Part shown: positions 1 to 36,333 of the stretch, in pieces | Layout of the letters: the number at the start of each line of letters is the position of its first letter | How positions within the stretch are numbered: the first letter of the stretch is position 1 | Assembly: GCF_006438825.1 (NCBI RefSeq) | Contig: NZ_RCZP01000001.1 | Coordinates: forward strand, 311,056-375,055 | Reading direction: 5' to 3' | DNA length: 64,000 nt | DNA from: Muricoccus nepalensis | GTDB lineage: Bacteria > Pseudomonadota > Alphaproteobacteria > Acetobacterales > Acetobacteraceae | Program-made: the position numbers and the translations under genes | Notes under the pieces: generated by a model | Seen by the model: only the letters and a program-made list of their open reading frames with translations | Database searches by the model: none | Told to the model about the DNA's origin: nothing

Positions 1-524
1 CGGCCGGCCCCCGGATGGAGCTCGGGACGCGGACGATCTTCAACCTGCTGGGACCCCTGACCAACCCGGCCAGGGTGCGCCGCCAGATGACCGGCGCCTT
101 CGCCCCGCAATGGCTCCGTCCCATGGCCGAGACGCTCGGCCGGATCGGCACGGAGCACGCCTGGCTCGTCCACGGCCAGGGCCTGGACGAGCTGACCATC
201 GCCGGCCCCTCCAATGTCGTGGAATTGAAGGGCGGCCTCATCCGGGAGTTCGAGGTCTCGCCGGAGGAGGCGGGGCTGCCGCGCCACCCCGCCGAGTCCC
301 TCCGCGGCGGGGAGGCCGCGGAGAACGCGGAGGCCCTTCTCGGCGTGCTCAGGGGCGAGGTGGGCGGCTACCGCGACTGCGTCCTGCTCAACGCCGCCGC
401 GGCCCTGGTCGTGGCGGGGCGGGTGGACAGCCTCCGGGCCGGCGCCGCCATCGCCGCCGAATCGATCGCCGCCGGGGCGGCCCTCTCGGCGTTGGAGCGC
501 TTGAGGGCGGCCACCGCCGCCTGA
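1..524 (+). CDS. trpD: Anthranilate phosphoribosyltransferase, C-terminal part (gene begins before the window)
   Basis: TrpD transfers the phosphoribosyl group of PRPP to anthranilate, the second committed step of tryptophan synthesis, in the cytoplasm. The visible 173 residues start inside the family's conserved segment ([18 protein letters not shown] near the window edge) and run to a TGA at 522-524; the reading frame is open to position 3, so an in-frame ATG at 15 is internal and not the start. The remainder matches the C-terminal alpha/beta domain, with the HG-DEL motif ([10 protein letters not shown]) that forms part of the anthranilate site. trpC follows 125 bases downstream on the same strand, as in most alphaproteobacterial trpGDC clusters. 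Confidence 0.93.
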
Positions 525-649
525 AGCCGCCGCCCGGCCGGCGCCCCGTGCGGCGCGCCGGCCCCGGGGGCGCGGGATGGCTGCCCTGCGGCCGGGGCGG
601 CCGCCTCCGCTTGACGCGCGGCGCGCATCGGCCCCAGGAACCGCCCATC

Positions 650-1473
<824 letters not shown>

Positions 1474-1477
<4 letters not shown>

Positions 1478-1983
1478 GCGCCCCGCCCGCCCCGGGCGGG
1501 GAGCGCGACGGCGGCGCCCTCACCCATTTCGACGCGGCCGGCCGCGCGGCCATGGTGGACGTCTCCGCCAAACCCGAGACGGTGCGCGAGGCCACCGCCC
1601 GCGGGCGCATCACCATGCGGCCCGAAACCCTGGCCCTCATCGCCGAGGGCCGCGCCGGAAAGGGCGACGTGCTCGGCGTCGCGCGGCTGGCGGGCATCAT
1701 GGCGGCCAAGCGCACGGCGGAGCTCATCCCGCTCTGCCACCCCCTCCCCCTCTCCGCCGTCACCCTCGACCTGGAGCTCGCGGCACCCGACGCCGTCGAG
1801 ATCGCGGCCACCGTCCGCACCGCCGGGCGCACGGGCGTGGAGATGGAGGCGATGACCGCCGTCAGCGTCGCGGCGCTGACGATCTACGACATGGTCAAGG
1901 CCGCCGACCGCGGCATGCGGATCGAGGCGGTGCGGCTGGTGCGCAAGTCCGGCGGCAAGTCGGGCCTCTTCGAGGCGCCCTGA
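1474..1983 (+). CDS. moaC: Cyclic pyranopterin monophosphate synthase
   Basis: MoaC converts the MoaA product to cyclic pyranopterin monophosphate, the first stable intermediate of molybdenum cofactor synthesis. The 169-residue protein carries the family signature blocks [16 protein letters not shown] at the N-terminus, [31 protein letters not shown] and the terminal KSGGKSG. No ATG or GTG lies in frame between the trpC stop and the conserved N-terminus, so the best start is TTG 1474, sharing bases with the trpC stop (TTGA). The TGA stop overlaps the moeA start (TGATG). Moco genes following trpC is a common alphaproteobacterial order. Confidence 0.93.
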
Positions 1984-3188
1984 TGATCGCCGTGGACGAG
2001 GCGCTGGCGCGGATCCTCGCGAACCTCCGCCCGACCGGCCCGGAGACGGTCCCCCTGCCCGAGGGCGCCGGCCGCGTCCTCGCGCGCGCCGTCGAGGCCC
2101 GCCTCACCCAGCCCCCCGCGGACGTCTCCGCCATGGACGGCTACGCCCTGCGCGCGGCGGACGCCGCGGTGGGCGCCCGGCTGCGCGTCACCGGCGCCTC
2201 CCCGGCCGGGCATCCCTTCGCGGGGGCCGTTGGGCCGGGCGAGGCCGTCCGCATCTTCACCGGCGGCGCCCTGCCGCCGGGCGCCGACGCCATCCTCCTG
2301 CAGGAGGACGCGACGGCCGGGGACGGGGTCGTGGTGCCCACCGAGGCACCGCGGGCCGGGCGCTGGATCCGCCGCCAGGGCCTCGACTTCCGCGCGGGCG
2401 AGGCGCTGATCGAGCCCGGCCGCCGCCTCACCGCGCGCGACATCGGCCTCGCCGCCGCCGCGAACCACCCCTGGCTCGCCGTGCACCGGCGCCCGCGGGT
2501 CGCCATCCTGGCCACGGGCGACGAGATCGTCCTGCCCGGCGAGGCGCTGCCGGCCGGCGGCATCGTCTCCTCCAACGCCCACGCGCTGGCCGCCCTCGTC
2601 CGCGCCGCGGGGGCGGAGCCGCTGGTGCTGCCGATCGCGGGCGACGACCGCGAGGCAATCGCCGCGGCGGCCGCGGCGGCCGCGGGCTGCGACCTCCTCG
2701 TCACCACCGGCGGCGCGAGCGTCGGCGAGCACGACCTCGTACAGGCGGCGCTCGGCCCGGAGGGCTTCTCGCTCGACTTCTGGAAGATCGCGATGCGGCC
2801 GGGCAAGCCGCTGATCTGGGGCGCGCTGCGGGGCACGCCGCTGCTCGGCCTGCCCGGGAACCCCGTCTCGGCCTTCGTCTGCGCGGTGGTCTTCCTCGTC
2901 CCCGCCCTCCGCCGCCTCTCGGGCCTGCCGGGCGGGCCGGTGGAGACGCGGCAGGGGATCCTCGGCGCGGCGCTGGAGGCGAACGACCGGCGGCAGGACT
3001 ACCTTCGGGCCGCCCTCGCGCGCGACGCCGAGGGGCGCGCCGTGGTCACGCCCTTCCCGGTGCAGGACAGCTCCATGCTGGCCACCCTGGCCCGGGCGGA
3101 GGCGCTGGTGGTGCGCGCCCCCCACGCGCCCTCGCTCGAAAAGGGCGCCCCCGTCGCTTTTGTGGAACTTTCCGCACTGGGTGCCTGA
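1983..3188 (+). CDS. moeA: Molybdopterin molybdenumtransferase
   Basis: MoeA inserts molybdate into adenylated molybdopterin to finish the molybdenum cofactor. At 401 residues it has the normal family length and domains: the N-terminal MoeA region with the SAMDGYAL motif near residue 50, the MoCF/MogA-like central domain with ATGDE and TTGGASVGEHD, and the small C-terminal beta domain. The ATG at 1983 overlaps the moaC stop by one base, which supports operon expression. The last codons lie about 25 bases upstream of the lexA SOS box. Confidence 0.95.
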   Translation: MIAVDEALARILANLRPTGPETVPLPEGAGRVLARAVEARLTQPPADVSAMDGYALRAADAAVGARLRVTGASPAGHPFAGAVGPGEAVRIFTGGALPPGADAILLQEDATAGDGVVVPTEAPRAGRWIRRQGLDFRAGEALIEPGRRLTARDIGLAAAANHPWLAVHRRPRVAILATGDEIVLPGEALPAGGIVSSNAHALAALVRAAGAEPLVLPIAGDDREAIAAAAAAAAGCDLLVTTGGASVGEHDLVQAALGPEGFSLDFWKIAMRPGKPLIWGALRGTPLLGLPGNPVSAFVCAVVFLVPALRRLSGLPGGPVETRQGILGAALEANDRRQDYLRAALARDAEGRAVVTPFPVQDSSMLATLARAEALVVRAPHAPSLEKGAPVAFVELSALGA

Positions 3189-3212
3189 GGAGCAGCATTG
3201 ACCGACACGGTG

Positions 3213-3227
3213 GAACTTTCATAGAAC
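3213..3227 (+). promoter_or_regulatory. SOS box (LexA operator) upstream of lexA
   Basis: The sequence GAACTTTCATAGAAC is an exact GAAC-N7-GAAC direct repeat, the LexA operator form of Alphaproteobacteria. It lies 66 bases before the lexA ATG, so autorepression of lexA is expected. An 11-base copy of its left part (GTGGAACTTTC, 3210-3220) also occurs at 3162-3172 inside the end of moeA, but there the second GAAC half-site is absent. Confidence 0.85.
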
Positions 3228-3293
3228 TTCGCCGTCGGTTGCCCGTTTGTTCGTGCAGAAGACCCCCTTCGCCCCCAGGGAGACGCCCGGACC

Positions 3294-4037
3294 ATGCTGA
3301 CCCGCAAGCAGCACGAACTCCTCATCTTCATCGACAAGCACCTCCGCAGCACCGGCTTCTCCCCCTCCTTCGAGGAGATGAAGGAGGCGCTGAACCTGAA
3401 GTCGAAGTCCGGGATCCATCGCCTGATCACGGCGCTGGAGGAGCGCGGCTTCCTTAAGCGCCGCGCTCACCGCGCCCGCGCCCTCGAGGTGCTGCGCGTG
3501 CCGGACAGCCTCTCGCCCCGCGGCGCCCCCGCGGCGGCCGCCCCGGCCCCGGCCGCGGCGGGCCCCGCGCAGCCCCTCTTCGCGCCGAACGTCATCCGCG
3601 GGAACTTTGCGCCCAACCTGCCGGGCGCCGTCCGCACCGCCAACGACGCCGCCGCCGTCCACCTGCCGCTCTACGGCCGCATCGCCGCCGGCCTGCCGAT
3701 CGAGGCGCTGCGCGACGGCGGCGAGAGCGTGGAGGTCCCGGCCGCGATGCTCGGGGGCGGCGAGCACTACGCGCTCGAGGTCTCCGGCGATTCAATGGAG
3801 GGCGCCGGCATCCTCGACGGCGACACCATCATCATCCGGCGCGGCGACACCGCGGACAACGGCTCGATCGTCGTCGCCCTCGTGGACGAGAACGAGGTGA
3901 CGCTGAAGCGCCTCCGCCGCCGCGGCAACTCCATCGCGCTCGAGGCCGCCAACCCGCGCTACGAGACCCGCATCTTCGGGCCGGACCGCGTGAAGGTGCA
4001 GGGCCGGCTGGTGGGGCTGGTCCGCCGCTACCACTGA
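3294..4037 (+). CDS. lexA: LexA repressor
   Basis: LexA represses the SOS regulon and is inactivated by RecA-stimulated self-cleavage. The 247-residue protein has an N-terminal winged-helix domain (residues 1-70, beginning [10 protein letters not shown]), a Pro/Ala-rich linker (about 72-95), and a C-terminal S24 peptidase domain. The self-cleavage site Ala132-Gly133, the nucleophile Ser167 (SGDSMEG) and the general-base Lys205 are all present. The ATG at 3294 matches the family start. A GAAC-N7-GAAC operator sits upstream at 3213-3227 and a strong hairpin follows the stop, so the gene is likely a single autoregulated unit. Confidence 0.96.
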
Positions 4038-4056
4038 GCGGCCGGGGGATGACCTG

Positions 4057-4090
4057 AAGGGCCGGGGGGGATCCCTCCCCGGCCCTTTCT
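4057..4090 (+). terminator. Intrinsic terminator after lexA (possibly shared with convergent comEC)
   Basis: An 11-bp perfect stem (4057-4067 with 4077-4087, arms AAGGGCCGGGG / CCCCGGCCCTT) is followed on the + strand by TTTCTCTATT. It lies between the convergent stops of lexA (4037) and comEC (4091), and the + direction has the better T-rich tail. Confidence 0.7.
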
Positions 4091-6264
4091 CTATTCGGTC
4101 TCCGCCGGCGGCTCGGCCTGGGGCTGCGCGCGCGGGACGGGCACGGGCGGCACCCAGGGCCGGTCGCCGCGGAAGGCCCGGTCCGAGAGGACGACCACGC
4201 CGTCCCGCCCGAGCCAGATCGCGTGCGACCCGTCGCGCCAGGCGCTGAAGCGGTCGACACGGGGCACGTCGCGGCAGCGGCCCCGGATCGGCTCCAGCGA
4301 CACCAGGACCGCGGCCTCCCCGCAGCCCGTCTCCGCCAGCACCGGCCCGGCCGGCGCGCGCCGCCCGCGGCCCCCCTCTCGCGGCGGCGCGCGGAGAAGC
4401 ACCGCGGCCGGTCCGTCCCCGCGCGGGCGGAGGAGGCAGGAGAGCGGCGTGCAGGCGGCGCCGGGCACCTCCCCCTCCCGCGGCAGGGCCGCCGCGTCAT
4501 CCTCGCCCCAGGCGCGCAGCCAGGATTCCCGCGTCAGCCGGCTCGAACCGGAGGCCCGCTCCGACAGCACGCCGGCGGGCGTGGCCACGGCCAGCATCCG
4601 CCCGTCCGCCGCGAGAAGGATGTCCGGCGGGGCCGTCGCCAGCCCCGAGAGCAGCCCCGCCGCCATCAGCGGCACGCCGGCCCAGCGCCAGGGGAGGCGC
4701 CAGAGGCAGAGCCAGAGCATGCCGAGGGAGAACAGGCCGAGCCCCCAGGCCGGGATCGGCGCCGCCGAGAGCGCGGCCCCCGGCCAGGACGCGACCGTGC
4801 GCCCGACGAGGAGCGTCGCGTCCACCCCCCACCCCATGACCGCCAGCGCCGGCCCTTCCCAGCCCAGCGGCATGAGGAAGGCCGCGAGCATCCCCGCGGG
4901 CATGACGACGAAGGAGGTGAGCGGCACCGCGACGGCGTTGGCCGCGACGCCGTAGAGCTGCAGCCGGCCGAAATGGTGCAGGCCGAAGGGCGTGGTGGCC
5001 GCGCCCGCGACGATCGAGGTTCCCATCAGGCCGATCAGCAGGAGCGCGAGCCGCCCCGCGCCGCCCCTTTCCCGCAGGCGCCGCGTGGGCCCGCGCATCG
5101 CCTCCGCCGCGGCGATGAGGGCGAGGACGGCGGCGAAGGACATCTGGAAGGAGGGCCCGACCAGGGCCTCCGGCGCGAAGAGCAGCACGAGGGCCGCCGC
5201 CACCGCCAGCGCCCGCGGCGAGAGCGCCCGCCGCCCCGTCAGGATCGCGAGGGTAAGAGGGCGGCCATGGCGAAGGACCGCACCATCGGCACCCCCGCCC
5301 CGGTGAGCAGCGTGTAGGCGCCGCCGAGGGCAAGGCCCGCCACCGCCGCCGCCCCCTTGGAATCGAAGCGCAGCGCAAGCCAGGGAATGGCCGCGATTCC
5401 CGCCCGGAGCACAACGAAGGCAAGGCCGATGACGATGGCGACGTGCAGGCCGGAGGGCGAGAGCAGGTGCGCGAGGCCGGAGTCGCGCAGCGCCGCGAGC
5501 TCGGCCGGCGGGATGGCCGATTGCGACCCGGTGAGCAGCGCCGCCGAGACCGCCCCCGTTCCCCCCGGCAGGGCCGCGGTCACGCGCGTCTCGATCGCGG
5601 TGCGGAGCCCGGCGAAGAAGGGCGCCTCCCCCCGCGCGGTGATCTCCGCGGGGTTGAGCGCAAAGCCGGACCCCGCCAGGCCCGAGAAGAAGGCGGCGCG
5701 CTGGAAGTCGAAGGCGCCGGGAAAGGCCGGCGGCATCGGTGGGCGGATCAGCGCGCGCACCGCGATCACGTCCCCCGGCGCCGGCCGCGCGGGGTCGTTG
5801 GCGCGGAGCCGGATGCGGACCCCGCGCGCGAGCGGCGGCCCCTCGCCCAGCCGCGGCGCGTCCAGCAGCACCCGCCGGCCCTCCGGCAGCAGGTCCACCG
5901 CCGCGACGCGCCCGCTGACGACGACCGCGGTCCGCGGCAGCTCCGGCAGCGGCGGCGCCACGCCCGCGTGGAAAATCGCCGCGGCGAAGCCGAGCGCCCC
6001 GGCCCCCGCCAGCGCCAGCCCCGCCCCGAGCAGCGGGTGCCGCGCCCGCGCGAGGAGGGCGAGCGCCAGGATCGGCCAGGGCAGCGCCATCCAGCCCGCG
6101 CCCGGCTCCGCCCGAAGCCCGAAATAGGCGAGCACGCCCGCGCCCATGGCGACGGGCAGCCAGAGCGGCCAGCGGCTCCACTCCGCCACGATCCACCCCT
6201 CCGCCCGCTCGGCAAGGGTCGGTCGGGGGGCGGCGATCAGCCCGGGCGCGGCGTGGGTGAGCAT
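4091..6264 (-). pseudogene. comEC: ComEC/Rec2-type DNA uptake channel, interrupted by a frameshift
   Basis: ComEC is the inner-membrane channel that carries single-stranded DNA into the cytoplasm during natural transformation. Two reading frames must be joined to recover it. ATG 6264 to TGA 5239 encodes 341 residues: N-terminal membrane segments, the soluble DUF4131/OB-like region, and the start of the Competence domain (LLTGSQSAIP, HLLSPSGLH, LLTGAGVPMVRSFAMAALL). The family sequence then continues in another frame (TLAILTGRRALSPRALA onward, many hydrophobic helices) to the TAG at 4091-4093. One base appears to be missing at about 5251-5262. The whole would be about 730 residues, a normal ComEC length, with no recognisable metallo-beta-lactamase domain. 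It is either a real inactivation or a sequencing error. It is divergent from gltX. Confidence 0.8.
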
Positions 6265-26192: not shown

Positions 26193-27176
26193 ATGACGAC
26201 GCACCCGCGGGGGCGCCTGCCCCGCCGCCGCCTTCTCGCCCTCGGCGCTGCCGGGTTTGCCGCGCCCGCCATCGCTCAGTCGGGCTTCCCCAACCGGCCC
26301 ATCCGCCTCCTCGTGCCCTGGCCGCCCGGCGGTTCGGCGGACGCCCAGCTCCGGTCGCTCGCGGACATGGCCACGAAGGCCATCGGCCAGCCCGTCCTGA
26401 TCGAGAACCGCTCCGGCGCGCGCGGCCTGCTGGCGGCCCAGGCGCTGCTGCAGGCGGCGCCGGACGGCTACACCCTCGCCCAGCACCACCTCTCGGTCCT
26501 CCGCCACCCCTTCATGACCAAGGCCCGGTCCTGGGACCCGGTCGCGGACTTCACCCCGGTGCTGGGGCTGACGGGATGGCTCTTCGGCGTCGTCGTGCGG
26601 GCGGACAGCCCGATCCAGGACTGGGCGGGCTACGTCGCCGCCGCGCGGGCCCGGCCGGGGCGGATGACCTACTCCACGAGCGGCATCGGGACGAGCAACC
26701 ACATCGCCATGGAGGACATCTGCGCGCGCCTCGGCCTCGAGATGACGCACGTCCCCTTCCGCGGCACCACCGAGGGCGTCACCTCGCTGCTCGGCGGGCA
26801 GATCGACAGCATCGCCGACAGCTCCGCCTGGGTGCCGCAGGTGGAATCGGGCGCCTTCCGGCTCCTCTGCGTCTGGTCGCCCGAGCGCGCGGCGCGCTTC
26901 CCGGCGGTGCCCACGCTGAAGGAGCTGGGCGTGGACGTGGTGGTCACCTCGCCCTACGGCATCGCGGGCCCCAAGGGCATGGACCCCGGCGTGGTGCGCG
27001 CCCTGCACGACGCCTTCAAGGCGGCGCTGATGAGCCCGGAGAACACCGCCGTCCGCGAGCGCTGGGACATGCCCCTCGCCTACATGGACACCGCCGCCTA
27101 CCGCGACTTCATCGCGGAGCGCGTGGCCTACGAGCGCGAGATGGTCGGGCGCCTCCGCCTGAGCATCGACAGCTAG
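26193..27176 (+). CDS. Bug/TctC-family periplasmic solute-binding protein
   Basis: Bug proteins bind small carboxylates in the periplasm and either serve TctAB transporters or act as orphans. The 327-residue protein begins with a twin-arginine-like leader (RRRLLALGAAGFAAPAIAQ), followed by the family blocks FPNRPIRLLVPWPPGGSAD, the ENRSGARG loop, PDGYTL and TYSTSGIGTSNHIAMED. ATG 26193 has GGAGG at 26181-26185. No TctA or TctB gene is adjacent, so this is an orphan binding protein; the ligand cannot be told. Its stop lies in a duplicated 15-bp unit. Confidence 0.88.
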   Translation: MTTHPRGRLPRRRLLALGAAGFAAPAIAQSGFPNRPIRLLVPWPPGGSADAQLRSLADMATKAIGQPVLIENRSGARGLLAAQALLQAAPDGYTLAQHHLSVLRHPFMTKARSWDPVADFTPVLGLTGWLFGVVVRADSPIQDWAGYVAAARARPGRMTYSTSGIGTSNHIAMEDICARLGLEMTHVPFRGTTEGVTSLLGGQIDSIADSSAWVPQVESGAFRLLCVWSPERAARFPAVPTLKELGVDVVVTSPYGIAGPKGMDPGVVRALHDAFKAALMSPENTAVRERWDMPLAYMDTAAYRDFIAERVAYEREMVGRLRLSIDS

Positions 27177-31425: not shown

Positions 31426-32671
31426 TGCGCAGCCCCTCCACCGGGTCCAGCCGCGCGGCGCGCCAGGAGGGATAGATCGTGGCCAGCAGCGAGAGGCCGA
31501 GCCCCATGCCGACCACCTGCGCCACCTCCATCGGCTCCACCACCGCTGGCAGCTTCGTCAGGAAGTAGATCTCCGCGCTGAACAGCTCCGTGCCCGTCAG
31601 CCCCTGGAGGAACTGCCGGATGTTCTCGATGTTGAGGCAGAAGACGAGGCCGATGAGGAAACCGATGAGCGTGCCCGCGATGCCGATGGAGGCGCCGGCG
31701 AGGAGGAAGATGCGCAGGATCGCGCCGCGGGTCGCGCCCACCGTCCGCAGCACCGCGATGTCCCGCCCCTTGTCCTTCACGAGCATGATCAGCGACGAGA
31801 CGATGTTGAAGGCGGCGACGATGATGATCAGCGTCAGGATGAGGAACATCACGTTCCGCTCCACCTGCACCGCGTTGAAGAAGGAGGAGTTGGAGTCCTG
31901 CCAGTCGAGCACCCGCACGGGCAGGCCGCGCAGCGCCCCGAAGATCTCGCGCGTCGCGTTCCGCACGCGGGAGGGATCGTCGACGAAGACCTCCACCTGG
32001 GTCGCGCTGTCGCGGTGCTGGAAATAGATCTGGGCCGCGCCGAAGGGCAGGAAGACGTAGCTGGAATCGTACTCCTGCATCCCCGCCTCGAAGAGCGCGA
32101 CCACCTCGTAGGCGCGCAGCCGCGGCACCGTGCCCATCACCGTCGTGCGCCCCTGGGGCGAGACGAGGGTGATGCGCTCGCCGACGCGGATGCCGAGCTT
32201 CCGCGCCAGGCGCGTGCCGATGACGATGGTGTCGTCGCCGCCGAAGCGCGCGAGGTCGCCCGCGCGGATGTTCCCCGCGATCAGCGGCCGCGCGCGCAGG
32301 TCCTCCGGCCGGATGCCGCGGGCCAGCCCGCCCGTCGCGCCGCCCTCGTCGCTCGTGAAGAGGACCTGCCCCTCCACGATCGGGGTCGCGGAAGCGATGC
32401 CCGGCAGGCCGCGGATGCGGGCGGCGATGTTGTCGAAGTCGCGAAGACCGTCGTTGTCCTGCGCGTAGACGCCGAGATGCCCGTTCAGCCCGAGGATCCG
32501 CCCCAGCAGCTCCTGCCGGAAGCCGTTCATCACGGACATGACGATGATGAGGGTCGCCACCCCGAGCGCGATGCCGACGAGCGAGAAGATCGCGATGACC
32601 GAGACGAAGCGCTCCCCCTTGCGGGCGCGGAGGTAGCGGAAGGCGACGGCGCGCTCGAAGGGGGAGAACAT
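31418..32671 (-). CDS. lolC: Lipoprotein-releasing system permease (LolC/LolE family)
   Basis: This inner-membrane permease is the partner of LolD. The 417-residue protein has the expected topology: a first transmembrane helix near residues 24-46 ([24 protein letters not shown]), a large periplasmic domain (about 50-265), and three C-terminal helices of the FtsX-like domain. Only one permease gene is present, as in most alphaproteobacteria, where a single LolC/E-like protein forms a homodimer. ATG 32671 overlaps the proS stop (TGATG). Confidence 0.94.
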
Positions 32672-33987
32672 CAAGCGAGCGTCGCGCGGATCCGGGCCAG
32701 CGCCTCGTCGAGCGGCAGTTCCAGCCGCTCGCCGGTCGCGCGGCGCTTCAACTCGACCACGCCCTTGGCCGCGCCCCGCGGCCCGACGATGGCCTGCCAG
32801 GGATAACCGACGAGGTCCGCGTCCGCGAACTTCGCCCCCGCGCGCTCCGGCCGGTCGTCCAGCACCGCCTCGCTGCGGAGCGCGCCGTAGAGCTGCTCGC
32901 AGAGCGCGTCCGCCGCGGCGTCTCCCGGCTTGAGGTTGAGGATGGCGCAGGCGTAGGGCGCGACGGCGTCGGGCCAGATGATGCCGCCCTCGTCGTGCCC
33001 GGCCTCGATGATGGCCGCGAGCAGCCGGGAGACGCCGATGCCGTAGGAGCCCATCTCCGGCACCACCGGCGTGCCGTCCGGCCCGGCAACCGTCAGGCCC
33101 ATGGGCTTGGAGTACTTCGTGCCGAAGTAGAAGATGTGGCCGACCTCGATCCCGCGCGCGGTGACCTGGCTCTCCGCGGGGATCGCGCCCCAGGCGGCCT
33201 CGTCGTGCTTCTCGTCGGTCGCGGCGTAGCGGCTGGTCCAGAAGTCCACCACCGGCGAGGGGTCGCCCGTGCCGCTCGGGTCCTGCGCCAGCACGTCGAA
33301 GTCGAGCAGGTCCTTGTGGAGGTAGACGAGGCTCTCGCCGGTCTCGGCGAGGATGATGAACTCGTGGCTGAGGTCGCCGCCGATCGGCCCCGTGTCGGCC
33401 TGCATCGGGATCGCCTTCAGCCCCATCCGCGCGAAGGTGCGCAGATAGGCCCGGAACATCAGCCGGTAGGAACGCCGCGCGCCCTCGGCGTCGAGGTCGA
33501 AGGAGTAGGCGTCCTTCATCAGGAACTCGCGCCCGCGCATGACGCCGAAGCGCGGCCGGATCTCGTCCCGGAACTTCCACTGGATGTGGTAGAGGCTGCG
33601 CGGCAGGTCGCGGTAGGACTTCGCGTAGCCCTTGAAGAGGTCGGTGACCATCTCCTCGTTCGTCGGGCCGTAGAGCATCTCGCGGTCGTGCCGGTCGGTG
33701 ATGCGGAGCATCTCCTTGCCGTAGTCCTCATAGCGGCCGCTCTCCTTCCAGAGGTCGGCGGGCTGCACCGTCGGCATGAGGATCTCCTGCGCGCCGGCGA
33801 GGTCCTGCTCCTGGCGCACGATCTCCGAGACCTTGCGGAGCACGCGGAGCCCGAGCGGCAGCCAGGCGTAGATGCCGGCGCTCGTCTGGCGGATGAGACC
33901 CGCGCGCAGCATGAGGCGGTGCGAGACGATCTGCGCCTCGGCGGGCGTTTCCTTCAGCGTGGGCAGGAAGGCGCGGGAAAGGCGCAA
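32671..33987 (-). CDS. proS: Proline--tRNA ligase
   Basis: ProS charges tRNA-Pro. The 438-residue class II synthetase begins [29 protein letters not shown] and has motif 2 ([27 protein letters not shown]) and motif 3 ([14 protein letters not shown]), with an anticodon-binding C-terminal domain. The length shows the short alphaproteobacterial form without the large editing insertion. The conserved N-terminus has no ATG; TTG 33987, with GGAG upstream, is the best start. Immediately upstream lies the sRNA terminator (34088-34119). Confidence 0.94.
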
Positions 33988-34087
33988 GTGCGGAGGCTCC
34001 GGTGGGCCAGGGGATGCGGTCGGGGCGCAACCTAGAGCAAGGCGCGGGGGGCGCAATCCGTGACGGGCTCCCGCCGCCCCGCGGTGC

Positions 34088-34119
34088 AAAAAAGAAGGGC
34101 CGCCCCGAAGGGACGGCCC
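34088..34119 (-). terminator. Intrinsic terminator with UUCG tetraloop (sRNA end)
   Basis: On the - strand: GGGCCG-T-CCC, loop TTCG, GGG-CGGCCC (34119-34097; nine pairs, one bulged T), followed by TTCTTTTTT (34096-34088). This is the strongest classical terminator in the window. It stands about 100 bases upstream of the proS start. Confidence 0.88.
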
Positions 34120-34229
34120 GAGTTTAGGGAGGAAACGCCAGTCACACGGCGGAAGAGGAAAAGCCCTCTTCCATGTCCCTATGATGAGCCCCGACCTCTC
34201 CCCGGAGAAGAGTTTTTGGCCGCCGGACG
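34088..34229 (-). ncRNA. mmgR: Candidate small RNA resembling the alpha-r8/MmgR family
   Basis: On the - strand this gene-free interval reads as a structured RNA: a stem at 34205-34210/34195-34200, an 8-bp stem (GGAAGAGG / CCTCTTCC, 34172-34165 with 34158-34151, loop GCTTTT), an unpaired TTTCCTCCCT (34135-34126), then an intrinsic terminator with a TTCG tetraloop and T-rich tail. As I recall it, the 10-mer UUUCCUCCCU is the conserved mark of the alpha-r8/MmgR sRNAs, Hfq-bound regulators of rhizobia encoded next to proS, the same place as here. The 5' end is inferred from a promoter at 34236-34265; a shorter form of about 85 bases starting near 34175 is also possible. The alternative is a proS leader with an attenuator. 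Confidence 0.6.
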
Positions 34230-34235
34230 GCGTGA

Positions 34236-34265
34236 AAATAGGCGAATAAGAAGCCTATTGATCAA
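34236..34265 (-). promoter_or_regulatory. Candidate sRNA promoter spanned by an inverted repeat
   Basis: On the - strand, TTGATC (34265-34260) and CTATTT (34241-34236) are 18 bases apart; CTATTT is close to the alphaproteobacterial -10 form. A perfect 7-bp inverted repeat, AATAGGC-N9-GCCTATT (34237-34259), fills the spacer and covers the -10, the arrangement expected of a repressor site. The region is much richer in A+T than its surroundings. Confidence 0.5.
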
Positions 34266-34301
34266 AAAGAAGGCCTCAAGACGCCAAAACCATGCATCTG
34301 C

Positions 34302-34562
34302 CTAATCGTTGGGCTTTGCCAGCCAGCCCTCGCGGAAGGAGAGCCAATCCGCCAGGACGAGCCAGTCGATGAAGAACCACACGAGGATGGAGACAACCGT
34401 GGTGGTGAGCACGACTCGCAGCACCCGCACCTGCCGGGGCGCCCCGCGCCAGCCGCCCGTCGCCTCGGCCTCGGGGTCCGGGTTCACGCCCAGCGGCAGC
34501 ACGGCGAAGAGGACCGTCCACCAGACGAGGAAGTAAACGACCGTTCCGGTAACCCAGCCCAT
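34302..34562 (-). CDS. DUF1467 family membrane protein
   Basis: A small inner-membrane protein of 86 residues with two hydrophobic helices (about residues 5-27, GTVVYFLVWWTVLFAVLPLGV, and 50-71), an Arg-rich loop between them and a short charged tail. The sequence fits the DUF1467 family, which is found in this position (between rnj and proS) in many alphaproteobacteria. Its function is unknown. ATG 34562. It ends 36 bases before the candidate sRNA promoter. Confidence 0.8.
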   Translation of the reverse strand: MGWVTGTVVYFLVWWTVLFAVLPLGVNPDPEAEATGGWRGAPRQVRVLRVVLTTTVVSILVWFFIDWLVLADWLSFREGWLAKPND

Positions 34563-34680
34563 CCCTGTTCCCCACGCCGCCCCGAAGGGGACTGCCGGGC
34601 CGCCCCAGGCGCCCGGACCCTGCCGTATCAGCCGCGATCACCATCAGGCGGAAACGGGAACATACCCCGCGCCTGCCGGA

Positions 34681-36333
34681 TCAGACCCGCAGGAGGTGAA
34701 GCTCCACCAGCGGGCGCTTGCGCACCCGGCGGCCGATGGCCTTGCGCAGCGCGGTCCGGGCCGCCTCGCGCAGCGCCGTGTCCTCGCGCCGCAGCCCCGC
34801 AGGCATGTCGTTGACGAGGCGGGCGAGGTCCGTCGCGATCTGGTTCGTCGCGTCCTCGCCTTGCTCAAAGAGGCCGGGCGCGGAGATCTGCGGCAGGCCG
34901 CGCACCTTCCCGCTGTCGTCCACCGCGAGCGAGCCGACGACGACGCCGTTGAAGAGCATCCGCCGGCGGGCGCCGAGCACCGTCCCCTCCAGCGGCAGCA
35001 GCCGGGCGCCGTCGACGGCGAGCTTGCCGCTCTGCACCGTCTCCGACACCTCCACAGTGCCCGGGCCGAGGCGGAGCATGTCGCCGTCCTCGATCAGGTG
35101 CGGGATGGCGCCGAAGTCGCGGGCCAGCGCCGCGTGCTGCTGCAGGTGACGCCACTCGCCGTGCACGGGTACCGCGTGGCGTGGCTTCACCAGGTCGTAG
35201 AGGCGTCGCAGCTCCTCCTTGGCGGGGTGGCCGGAGACGTGGACCGGGTGCTCGGAGTCCGGCGTAATGACTCGGCAGCCCGCGCGGAAAAGGGCGGACT
35301 CCACGGCCATGATCGCCTTCTCGTTCCCCGGGATCATGCGGGAGGAGAAGATGACGGTGTCCCCCTCCCCCAGCGAGATCTGGGGATGCGTGTCCGCCGC
35401 GATCTTGGCGAGCGCCGAGCGCGGCTCGCCCTGGCTGCCCGTGCAGATGATCAGCAGCTCGTCATCCGGCTGGTAGCCGGCCTCGTCCTCCTCCAGGAAG
35501 GGCGGGATGTCCTTGAAATATCCCGTCTCGCGCGCCGACGCATCGGCGTTGCGCAGCGACCGGCCGAAGAGCGCGACCCGTCGCCCCGCGGCCATGGCGG
35601 CGCGGGCGATCGATTCGACACGGGCGATGTTGGTCGCGAAGCAGGCGACCGCCACCCGGCCCTTCAGCCCCGCGATGAGGCTGGTCAGGGCGACGCGCAC
35701 GTCCGCCTCGCTTCCGGAGAAGCCGTCCACCAGGGCGTTGGTGCTGTCGCAGACCATGGCCAGCACGCCCTCGCGCCCGAGCGCCGCGAAGCCGGCCTCG
35801 TCGGTCGGCGGCCCGATCAGCGGGTCGGCGTCGAGCTTCCAGTCGCCGGTGTGCAGGACCGTGCCGTAGGGGGTGCGGATGGCCAGGGCCTGGGCCTCGG
35901 GCACGGAATGCGCGACGCGGAGGAACTGGAGGTCGAAGGCCCCGATCAGCAGGCGGGAGGCCAGCGGCACGGTGTGGAGCTTCACCTCGCCGAGCAGCCC
36001 GGCCTCGCCGAGCTTGCGGCGCAGGACGGCCGCGGCGAAGGGGCTGGCGTAGAGCGGGCAGCGCAAGAGCGGCCAGAGCGACGCCACCGCGCCGAGATGG
36101 TCCTCGTGCGCGTGGGTGATCACCAAGCCCACCAGCCGGTCCCGCCGCTCCACCAGCCAGGCGGGATCCGGCACGAGGATCTCCGCCTCCGGGAACTCGC
36201 TTCCCCCGAACCCGATGCCGCAATCCACCGCCAGGAGGGCCCCGTCCAGGCGATAGACGTTGAGATTCATCCCGATCTCGCCCGTCCCCCCCAGAGGGAG
36301 GAAGGCGAGGTCGTCCGTTGTATCGAAGGTCAT
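34681..36333 (-). CDS. rnj: Ribonuclease J
   Basis: RNase J is an mRNA-decay and rRNA-maturation nuclease with 5'-3' exonuclease activity, used by alphaproteobacteria alongside RNase E. The 550-residue protein has a metallo-beta-lactamase core ([12 protein letters not shown]; zinc motif HAHEDH near residue 75; HTGDWKLD), the beta-CASP insert ([30 protein letters not shown]), the HVSGH motif and a C-terminal domain. Its ATG overlaps the coaX stop by four bases. Confidence 0.94.

Follow-up and report, generated by a model that had tools for sequence, protein, structure and literature searches.

The interval between a DUF1467 gene and proS raises the question of whether it encodes an RNA regulator of its own, to which family such an RNA would belong, and on which mRNAs it could act. 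Within the window, i.e., the whole stretch of 64,000 nucleotides analysed here, the interval is bordered on the minus strand by the DUF1467 gene upstream (34302..34562, PF07330) and by proS downstream (32671..33990, approximate start; proline--tRNA ligase, NCBIfam NF008979, 701.8 bits). An RNase J-type gene, which scored under the cut-offs of the RNase J models, lies upstream of DUF1467 (34681..36333, minus strand; PF22505 and others). No supported gene was found in the interval itself, for which a single open frame of 81 aa is listed (34060-34305, plus strand). When the whole window was screened against 4227 Rfam families, the covariance model RF00519 matched at 34082-34157 on the minus strand with 47.2 bits against a cut-off of 41 (E = 1.4e-6), covering all 77 model positions. 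RF00519 is named suhB in Rfam, with mmgR as its description, belongs to clan CL00108 and corresponds to alpha-r8. The RNA is thus a member of the alpha-r8/MmgR family, and this membership is secure. The initial annotation had recognized a structured small RNA of this family between DUF1467 and proS from the letters alone and had named the Rfam covariance search as a check; the full-length match above the cut-off, the terminator, the fold and the exposed, unpaired 10-mer described below all bear it out. An overlapping weak match to SorY (RF02651, 22 bits versus a cut-off of 111) was rejected, as were the other sub-threshold Rfam matches.

The likely transcript, as read from conservation and folding, would run from 34173 to 34088 on the minus strand (86 nt). 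It begins with a 5′ hairpin of eight pairs that lies mostly beyond the Rfam model (GGAAGAGG-GCTTTT-CCTCTTCC, 34172-34151), followed by a short, near-invariant second hairpin (GCCGTGTGACTGGC, also given as GCCGUGUGACUGGC; 34137..34150), by the single-stranded seed UUUCCUCCCU (placed as TTTCCTCCCT at 34135-34126, minus strand) and by an intrinsic terminator (34119-34088) with 10 pairs, nine of them G-C, a UUC loop and the U tail TTCTTTTTT. The fold of 34173-34088 reaches -40.9 kcal/mol versus -27.5 +/- 3.1 for shuffled sequences (z -4.27, with none of 200 shuffles as good), and the 10-mer is unpaired with a mean probability of 0.915 (0.716 at its lowest base). In this anatomy the RNA resembles alpha-r8/MmgR of S. 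meliloti, with which it shares all 77 model positions, the exposed 10-mer, the weak hairpin upstream of it, the Rho-independent terminator downstream of it, and the presence of hfq in the genome (one gene in the genome of the window, 110.7 bits).

The 5′ hairpin covaries. A mean of 8.39 of nine pairs is kept with both arms varying (31 distinct of the 44 aligned sequences), and exchanging the 3′ arms among the hairpins gave 7.48 pairs, with a highest value of 7.94, so that none of 1000 exchanges reached the observed one. RNAalifold did not predict this hairpin on the plain alignment (A1), because differing loop lengths shift the 5′ arms out of register there. Several other alpha-r8 copies in the genome of the window also fold with a 5′ stem, and MmgR has three stem-loops according to a review (PMC7143759); thus, the stem may not be peculiar to the lineage found next to proS.

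Given that the RNA follows immediately after DUF1467 and shares its strand, and that its terminator could end that mRNA, it could also be a 3′-UTR fragment cut from an RNase J-DUF1467 mRNA and no independent gene. The upstream sequence speaks against this. We compared 47 distinct regions (that of the window and those of 46 related loci), and in 46 of them the 5′ hairpin is preceded, at 6-8 nt, by the end of a hexamer that has A as its second and T as its sixth base; in the window, this -10-like element reads CATCAT (34181..34186, minus strand). At 16-19 nt before the hexamer, a -35-like element reads TTGnnn in 19 of the 47 regions and TGGACn/TAGACn in 16, while the window (TTCTCC, 34204..34209, minus strand, at 17 nt) and eight close relatives have a weaker TTCnnn; the -35 match is partly fitted, because the spacing was picked as the best of several. 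A sigma-70 consensus scan of 33800-34600 returned no promoter, so the promoter call rests on conservation and not on consensus. This putative element pair keeps its place relative to the 5′ hairpin at 46 of the 47 loci, the rest of the interval drifting. In addition, separate promoters were inferred for SisA-D, the alpha-r8 siblings of Caulobacter crescentus, in PMC12559287. We therefore regard an origin as a 3′-UTR fragment as improbable. From the same comparison we infer a 5′ end near 34173. Of the span 34088-34229 first assigned to the RNA, the 34088 end stands; the 34229 end is too far upstream, because the conserved block starts near 34187, and 34174-34229 looks like a promoter region rather than RNA. 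The explanation we favour, and hold to be very probable, is an independently transcribed Hfq-type trans-acting sRNA of the alpha-r8 (RF00519) family, whose seed represses a set of mRNAs.

The genome of the window (G000, 6.53 Mb) contains seven RF00519 copies over the cut-off, and these fall into two sequence lineages. The loci examined comprised all 81 RF00519 matches (E of 0.001 or less) of the genomes G000-G023, with seven from the genome of the window, 57 from 14 others of the genus and 17 from nine others of the family, together with 15 of the 22 matches that other families of the class had given. The 8-mer TTTCCTCC is present in 90 of these 96 loci, and the ones without it (L036, L160, L171, L201, L211 and L212) were left unclassified. 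Type I, the kind found in the window, has GCCGUGUGAC or GCCGUGUGAU before the core and makes up 21 of the 81 family loci. All 15 genus genomes and six of the nine other family genomes have one copy of it each, and the locus is fixed: proS or DUF1467 is a neighbour in all 21 cases, and both are in 19. Type II has UCUUGGACG before the core and accounts for 54 of the 81 family loci, including the other six copies of the window's genome. One of those six is linked to an FGase (N-formylglutamate amidohydrolase) gene (L001; PF05013, 242.4 bits), and such an FGase-linked Type II copy is found in all 15 genus genomes. Three of the 81 loci (L026, L033 and L177) belong to neither type and another three lack the 8-mer, while the number of RF00519 matches per genome in the genus ranges from 3 to 8.

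The linkage to proS is thus real, and it marks an Acetobacteraceae lineage of the alpha-r8 family. It had initially been taken for the usual position of the rhizobial gene, and this is not supported and has to be corrected: PMC12559287 describes most species as having one alpha-r8 copy, adjoining the FGase gene, and among 12 loci of other families of the class that have the core, seven lie by FGase and none by proS (within ~1.5 kb on each side). Two further loci of the class are also found by FGase (L414 and L415) and two by none of the probe genes (L416 and L417). FGase adjacency, as the mark of a strict MmgR orthologue, is found at L001 and not at the copy in the window. Unlike FGase-linked alpha-r8/MmgR, the latter lies between DUF1467 and proS, has the near-invariant GCCGUGUGACUGGC hairpin, and carries its 5′ hairpin mostly beyond the model. 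Nor does its occurrence in Acetobacteraceae extend the family to a new group, as had been suggested, since alpha-r8 is already reported from all Alphaproteobacteria except Rickettsiales (PMC12559287). What the locus adds is a strongly conserved alpha-r8 site in Acetobacteraceae, together with the distinction between a fixed lineage and another that is carried by plasmids as well. Among the papers listed by our literature search, which covered titles and the beginnings of abstracts, none concerned an alpha-r8 RNA in Acetobacteraceae. Lagares et al. reportedly published a phylogenetic survey of the alpha-r8 family in 2016, which may already describe members from Acetobacteraceae. Outside the family, one of the 12 core-bearing loci has its alpha-r8 RNA downstream of an RNase J-like gene (L207, genome G026), a hint that the DUF1467/proS site is perhaps older than the family.

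The RNA could also be a cis-acting proS leader or attenuator, i.e., a controlled terminator at which read-through sets proS expression. At all 20 proS-linked loci for which proS itself was located, the RNA is oriented toward it, with the seed 126-346 nt before the proS match. However, this distance varies, alpha-r8 is also located at FGase and other genes, and at the FGase loci a leader role is impossible, because FGase is encoded on the opposite strand. Moreover, the most conserved part of the RNA is the exposed seed. A role as proS leader is therefore unlikely, and a trans-acting sRNA is again the better account.

A 24-nt signature of the proS-linked lineage was searched with one mismatch allowed. 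It was found in 59 of 100 family genomes, once in 58 of them and twice in G394, "Acetobacteraceae" being used here in the wider sense that includes Roseomonadaceae. Within the family it was present in 42 of 49 genomes of at least 4 Mb, in 16 of 34 with 3.0-3.9 Mb and in one of 17 with less than 3 Mb. A draw of 289 genomes from the class yielded it in one, the window's own, with no occurrence in 285 genomes from other families and none in the three other family members drawn (small genomes, 2.0-2.5 Mb). Eight Type I loci taken from the 60 signature places each adjoin at least one of RNase J, DUF1467 and proS. Two family genomes (G021 and G077, 2.9 and 2.5 Mb) gave no RF00519 match at E 0.001, and this absence suggests loss in reduced genomes. 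In the control panel, Thermus composti also matched RF00519, and one of the two, either it or Caulobacter, was over the cut-off.

The survey of DUF1467 loci covered the best 80 of 273 and relied on an exact search that a diverged RNA would escape. Among these 80, a Type I RNA was present ~900 nt downstream or nearer in 49 loci, a variant in one (L078) and a more diverged core in four (L054, L058, L090 and L104), while 26 were without TTTCCTCCC. By record title, the last group includes Reyranella, Skermanella, Stella, Niveispirillum, Brevundimonas, Fulvimarina, unspecified Alphaproteobacteria and others, with one locus each from Acetobacteraceae (L057), Acidisphaera (L063) and Rhodospirillales (L067); in L067, L095 and L101 of the survey the sequence stops at most 300 nt from the gene. 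The nearest named locus among the best 80 of 273 is that of Roseomonas aerilata (92% identity), which is Muricoccus aerilatus, family Roseomonadaceae, in the current NCBI taxonomy. At loci with DUF1467 proteins of 43-92% identity to that of the window, the core, the second hairpin and the terminator are conserved and the flanks drift. UUCG-type loops are frequent in terminators, and the whole feature could in principle be a mere terminator hairpin beside a purine-complementary stretch that arose by chance. Against the complete covariance-model match, the signature shared by 59 of the 100 family genomes and the covariation of the extra 5′ hairpin, this is hardly conceivable.

The second lineage, Type II, is also found on plasmids in relatives. 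One Type II copy (L005) is convergent to a long helicase-like gene, an arrangement that occurs on two Roseomonas plasmids as well (L447, NZ_CP025059.1, and L448, NZ_CP087720.1), with RF00519 scores of 57.3 and 61.7 bits; there, alpha-r8 is flanked by a ParB-domain gene on one side and a long gene called "N-6 DNA methylase" on the other. The RNA of the window itself gave short partial matches in 24 plasmid records (nine Methylobacterium, nine Roseomonas, three Azospirillum and three others), none of which covers 80% of the query. Four plasmid regions were run against Rfam, and three were over the cut-off, with R. haemaphysalidis under it. Elsewhere, three alpha-r8 copies of the genus member G010 (L013, L182 and L187) adjoin relatives of the L005 helicase-like gene, and at L151 a helicase-like protein of ~1380 aa (26-4174, plus strand), with weak ResIII/SNF2/Helicase_C and DrmD-like matches, is encoded convergent to an alpha-r8 copy. 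On plasmid pMNOD02 of Methylobacterium nodulans, an alpha-r8 RNA (L449:2484-2559, plus strand, 64.0 bits) lies ~200 nt upstream of an annotated phasin gene. MmgR is known to affect phasins in S. meliloti (PMC7143759).

As to how the sRNA would act, the most likely mode, by analogy with SisA of Caulobacter, is Hfq-assisted repression in trans by covering Shine-Dalgarno sequences. Transcription would start near 34173 and end at the terminator at 34088, the stems would protect the RNA, and the U-rich tail probably binds Hfq. The exposed CGUUUCCUCCCU could then pair with purine-rich ribosome-binding sites AGGGAGGAAACG and keep a group of mRNAs from being translated, the most plausible ones being those of nutrient-uptake receptors. 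In PMC12559287, SisA-D are described as alpha-r8 siblings that base-pair at the start sites of their targets and are sponged by CrfA, and SisA was shown to repress by covering Shine-Dalgarno sequences. The likeness to the present case consists of several siblings, one common seed and seed-complementary start sites among the candidate targets; it differs in the candidates, which here are TctC/Bug receptors, whereas TonB-dependent receptors are stressed in the same source. A scan of 1.30 Mb of G000 (no more than a fifth of this genome) for a CrfA-like sponge, with seed-complementary 9-mers as the query, gave none that was convincing: of 126 places complementary to the seed region, one (L282) had a terminator-like fold within 140 nt after it.

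At least 150 TctC/Bug receptor genes were found in G000, and one such gene lies inside the window (26352-27152, plus strand). The motif AGGGAGGAA occurs 3-12 nt upstream of an ATG at nine places in G000, versus three for the reversed control pattern; eight of the nine belong to open frames of at least 130 codons, and three of these eight are TctC/Bug genes (PF03401). In the 14 other genomes of the genus the motif has 148 such places versus 22 for the control, and 10 of the 28 examined (two per genome) are Bug genes, the others including some short frames and an alpha-r8 locus (L261). With AAGGAGGAA, which is one base off, Bug genes were obtained in seven of 30 loci, a share close to the 10 of 28 for AGGGAGGAA.

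The main target test used 1.25 Mb of G000 that were picked as Bug-rich, with 860 genes called, 96 of them Bug. At least 7 complementary nt in the 22 nt before the start codon were found in 21 of 96 Bug genes versus 50 of 764 others (odds ratio 4.0, p 7e-6), at least 8 nt in 11 versus 14, and at least 9 nt in six versus six, a few of these hits being to the seed flank because the complement was sought anywhere in the 22 nt around the seed. In the ribosomal anti-Shine-Dalgarno register at 7 nt, the counts were six of 96 Bug and 43 of 764 other genes. The Bug counts were reached by 23, 12 and 5 of 300 flank-shuffled decoys at 7, 8 and 9 nt, respectively. A less refined gene caller gave sites at 7 nt in 12 of 46 Bug versus 21 of 308 other genes, none of 40 decoys reached 12 (or 8 at 8 nt), and in a run with 500 decoys the Bug counts were reached by 14, 2 and 1 of them at 7, 8 and 9 nt; the main test, with the better caller and about three times the sequence, supersedes both of these runs, and its outcome against the decoys is less favourable. 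Secreted-like genes other than Bug had no excess of sites (nine of 156 versus 41 of 608).

The remaining controls are divided. In terms of duplex energy, 59 of 60 decoys gave a smaller mean difference between Bug genes and others than the seed did, but the Bug mean alone was reached by six of 60, and the best 40 genes by seed energy include two Bug genes versus 4.5 expected. Pairing with the ribosomal anti-Shine-Dalgarno is likewise better for Bug genes (-11.67 versus -10.78 kcal/mol). In G013, none of six sampled Bug genes has a site. In G058, a genome without RF00519, seed sites were found in none of 24 Bug genes, a weak control because anti-Shine-Dalgarno-register sites were also found in none of the 24. 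Overall, the target evidence is mixed: Bug genes here have strong GGAGGAA start sites that suit the seed, which makes them candidate targets. The early proposal that the RNA could silence many mRNAs agrees with SisA in Caulobacter (PMC12559287) and in part with the target test. Should the TctC/Bug genes prove to be true targets, at least 150 genes of one receptor family would be tied to a single sRNA seed, and the cause of the multiplication of alpha-r8 copies would become directly testable.

Combining the two lineages with these candidates, one may tentatively propose, although we consider it rather doubtful, a sibling system in Acetobacteraceae with one anti-Shine-Dalgarno seed, in which a vertical, single-copy, proS-linked RNA and variable, partly plasmid-borne siblings of the FGase type would jointly repress the expanded TctC/Bug receptors. 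If so, gain or loss of plasmids would alter the dosage of a chromosomal nutrient-uptake regulon.

Two minor observations concern other loci. At L219, in the genome of the window, the start codon of a photosynthetic reaction centre gene (PF00124) is preceded by AAGGGAGGAACGG (near 1501-1518), a long complement to the alpha-r8 seed. At L121 (near 1501), a putative stem-loop was noted by eye before an acyl-carrier-like frame, with a G/A-rich loop, GAGGGTGGAAA, that is one base off the seed complement.
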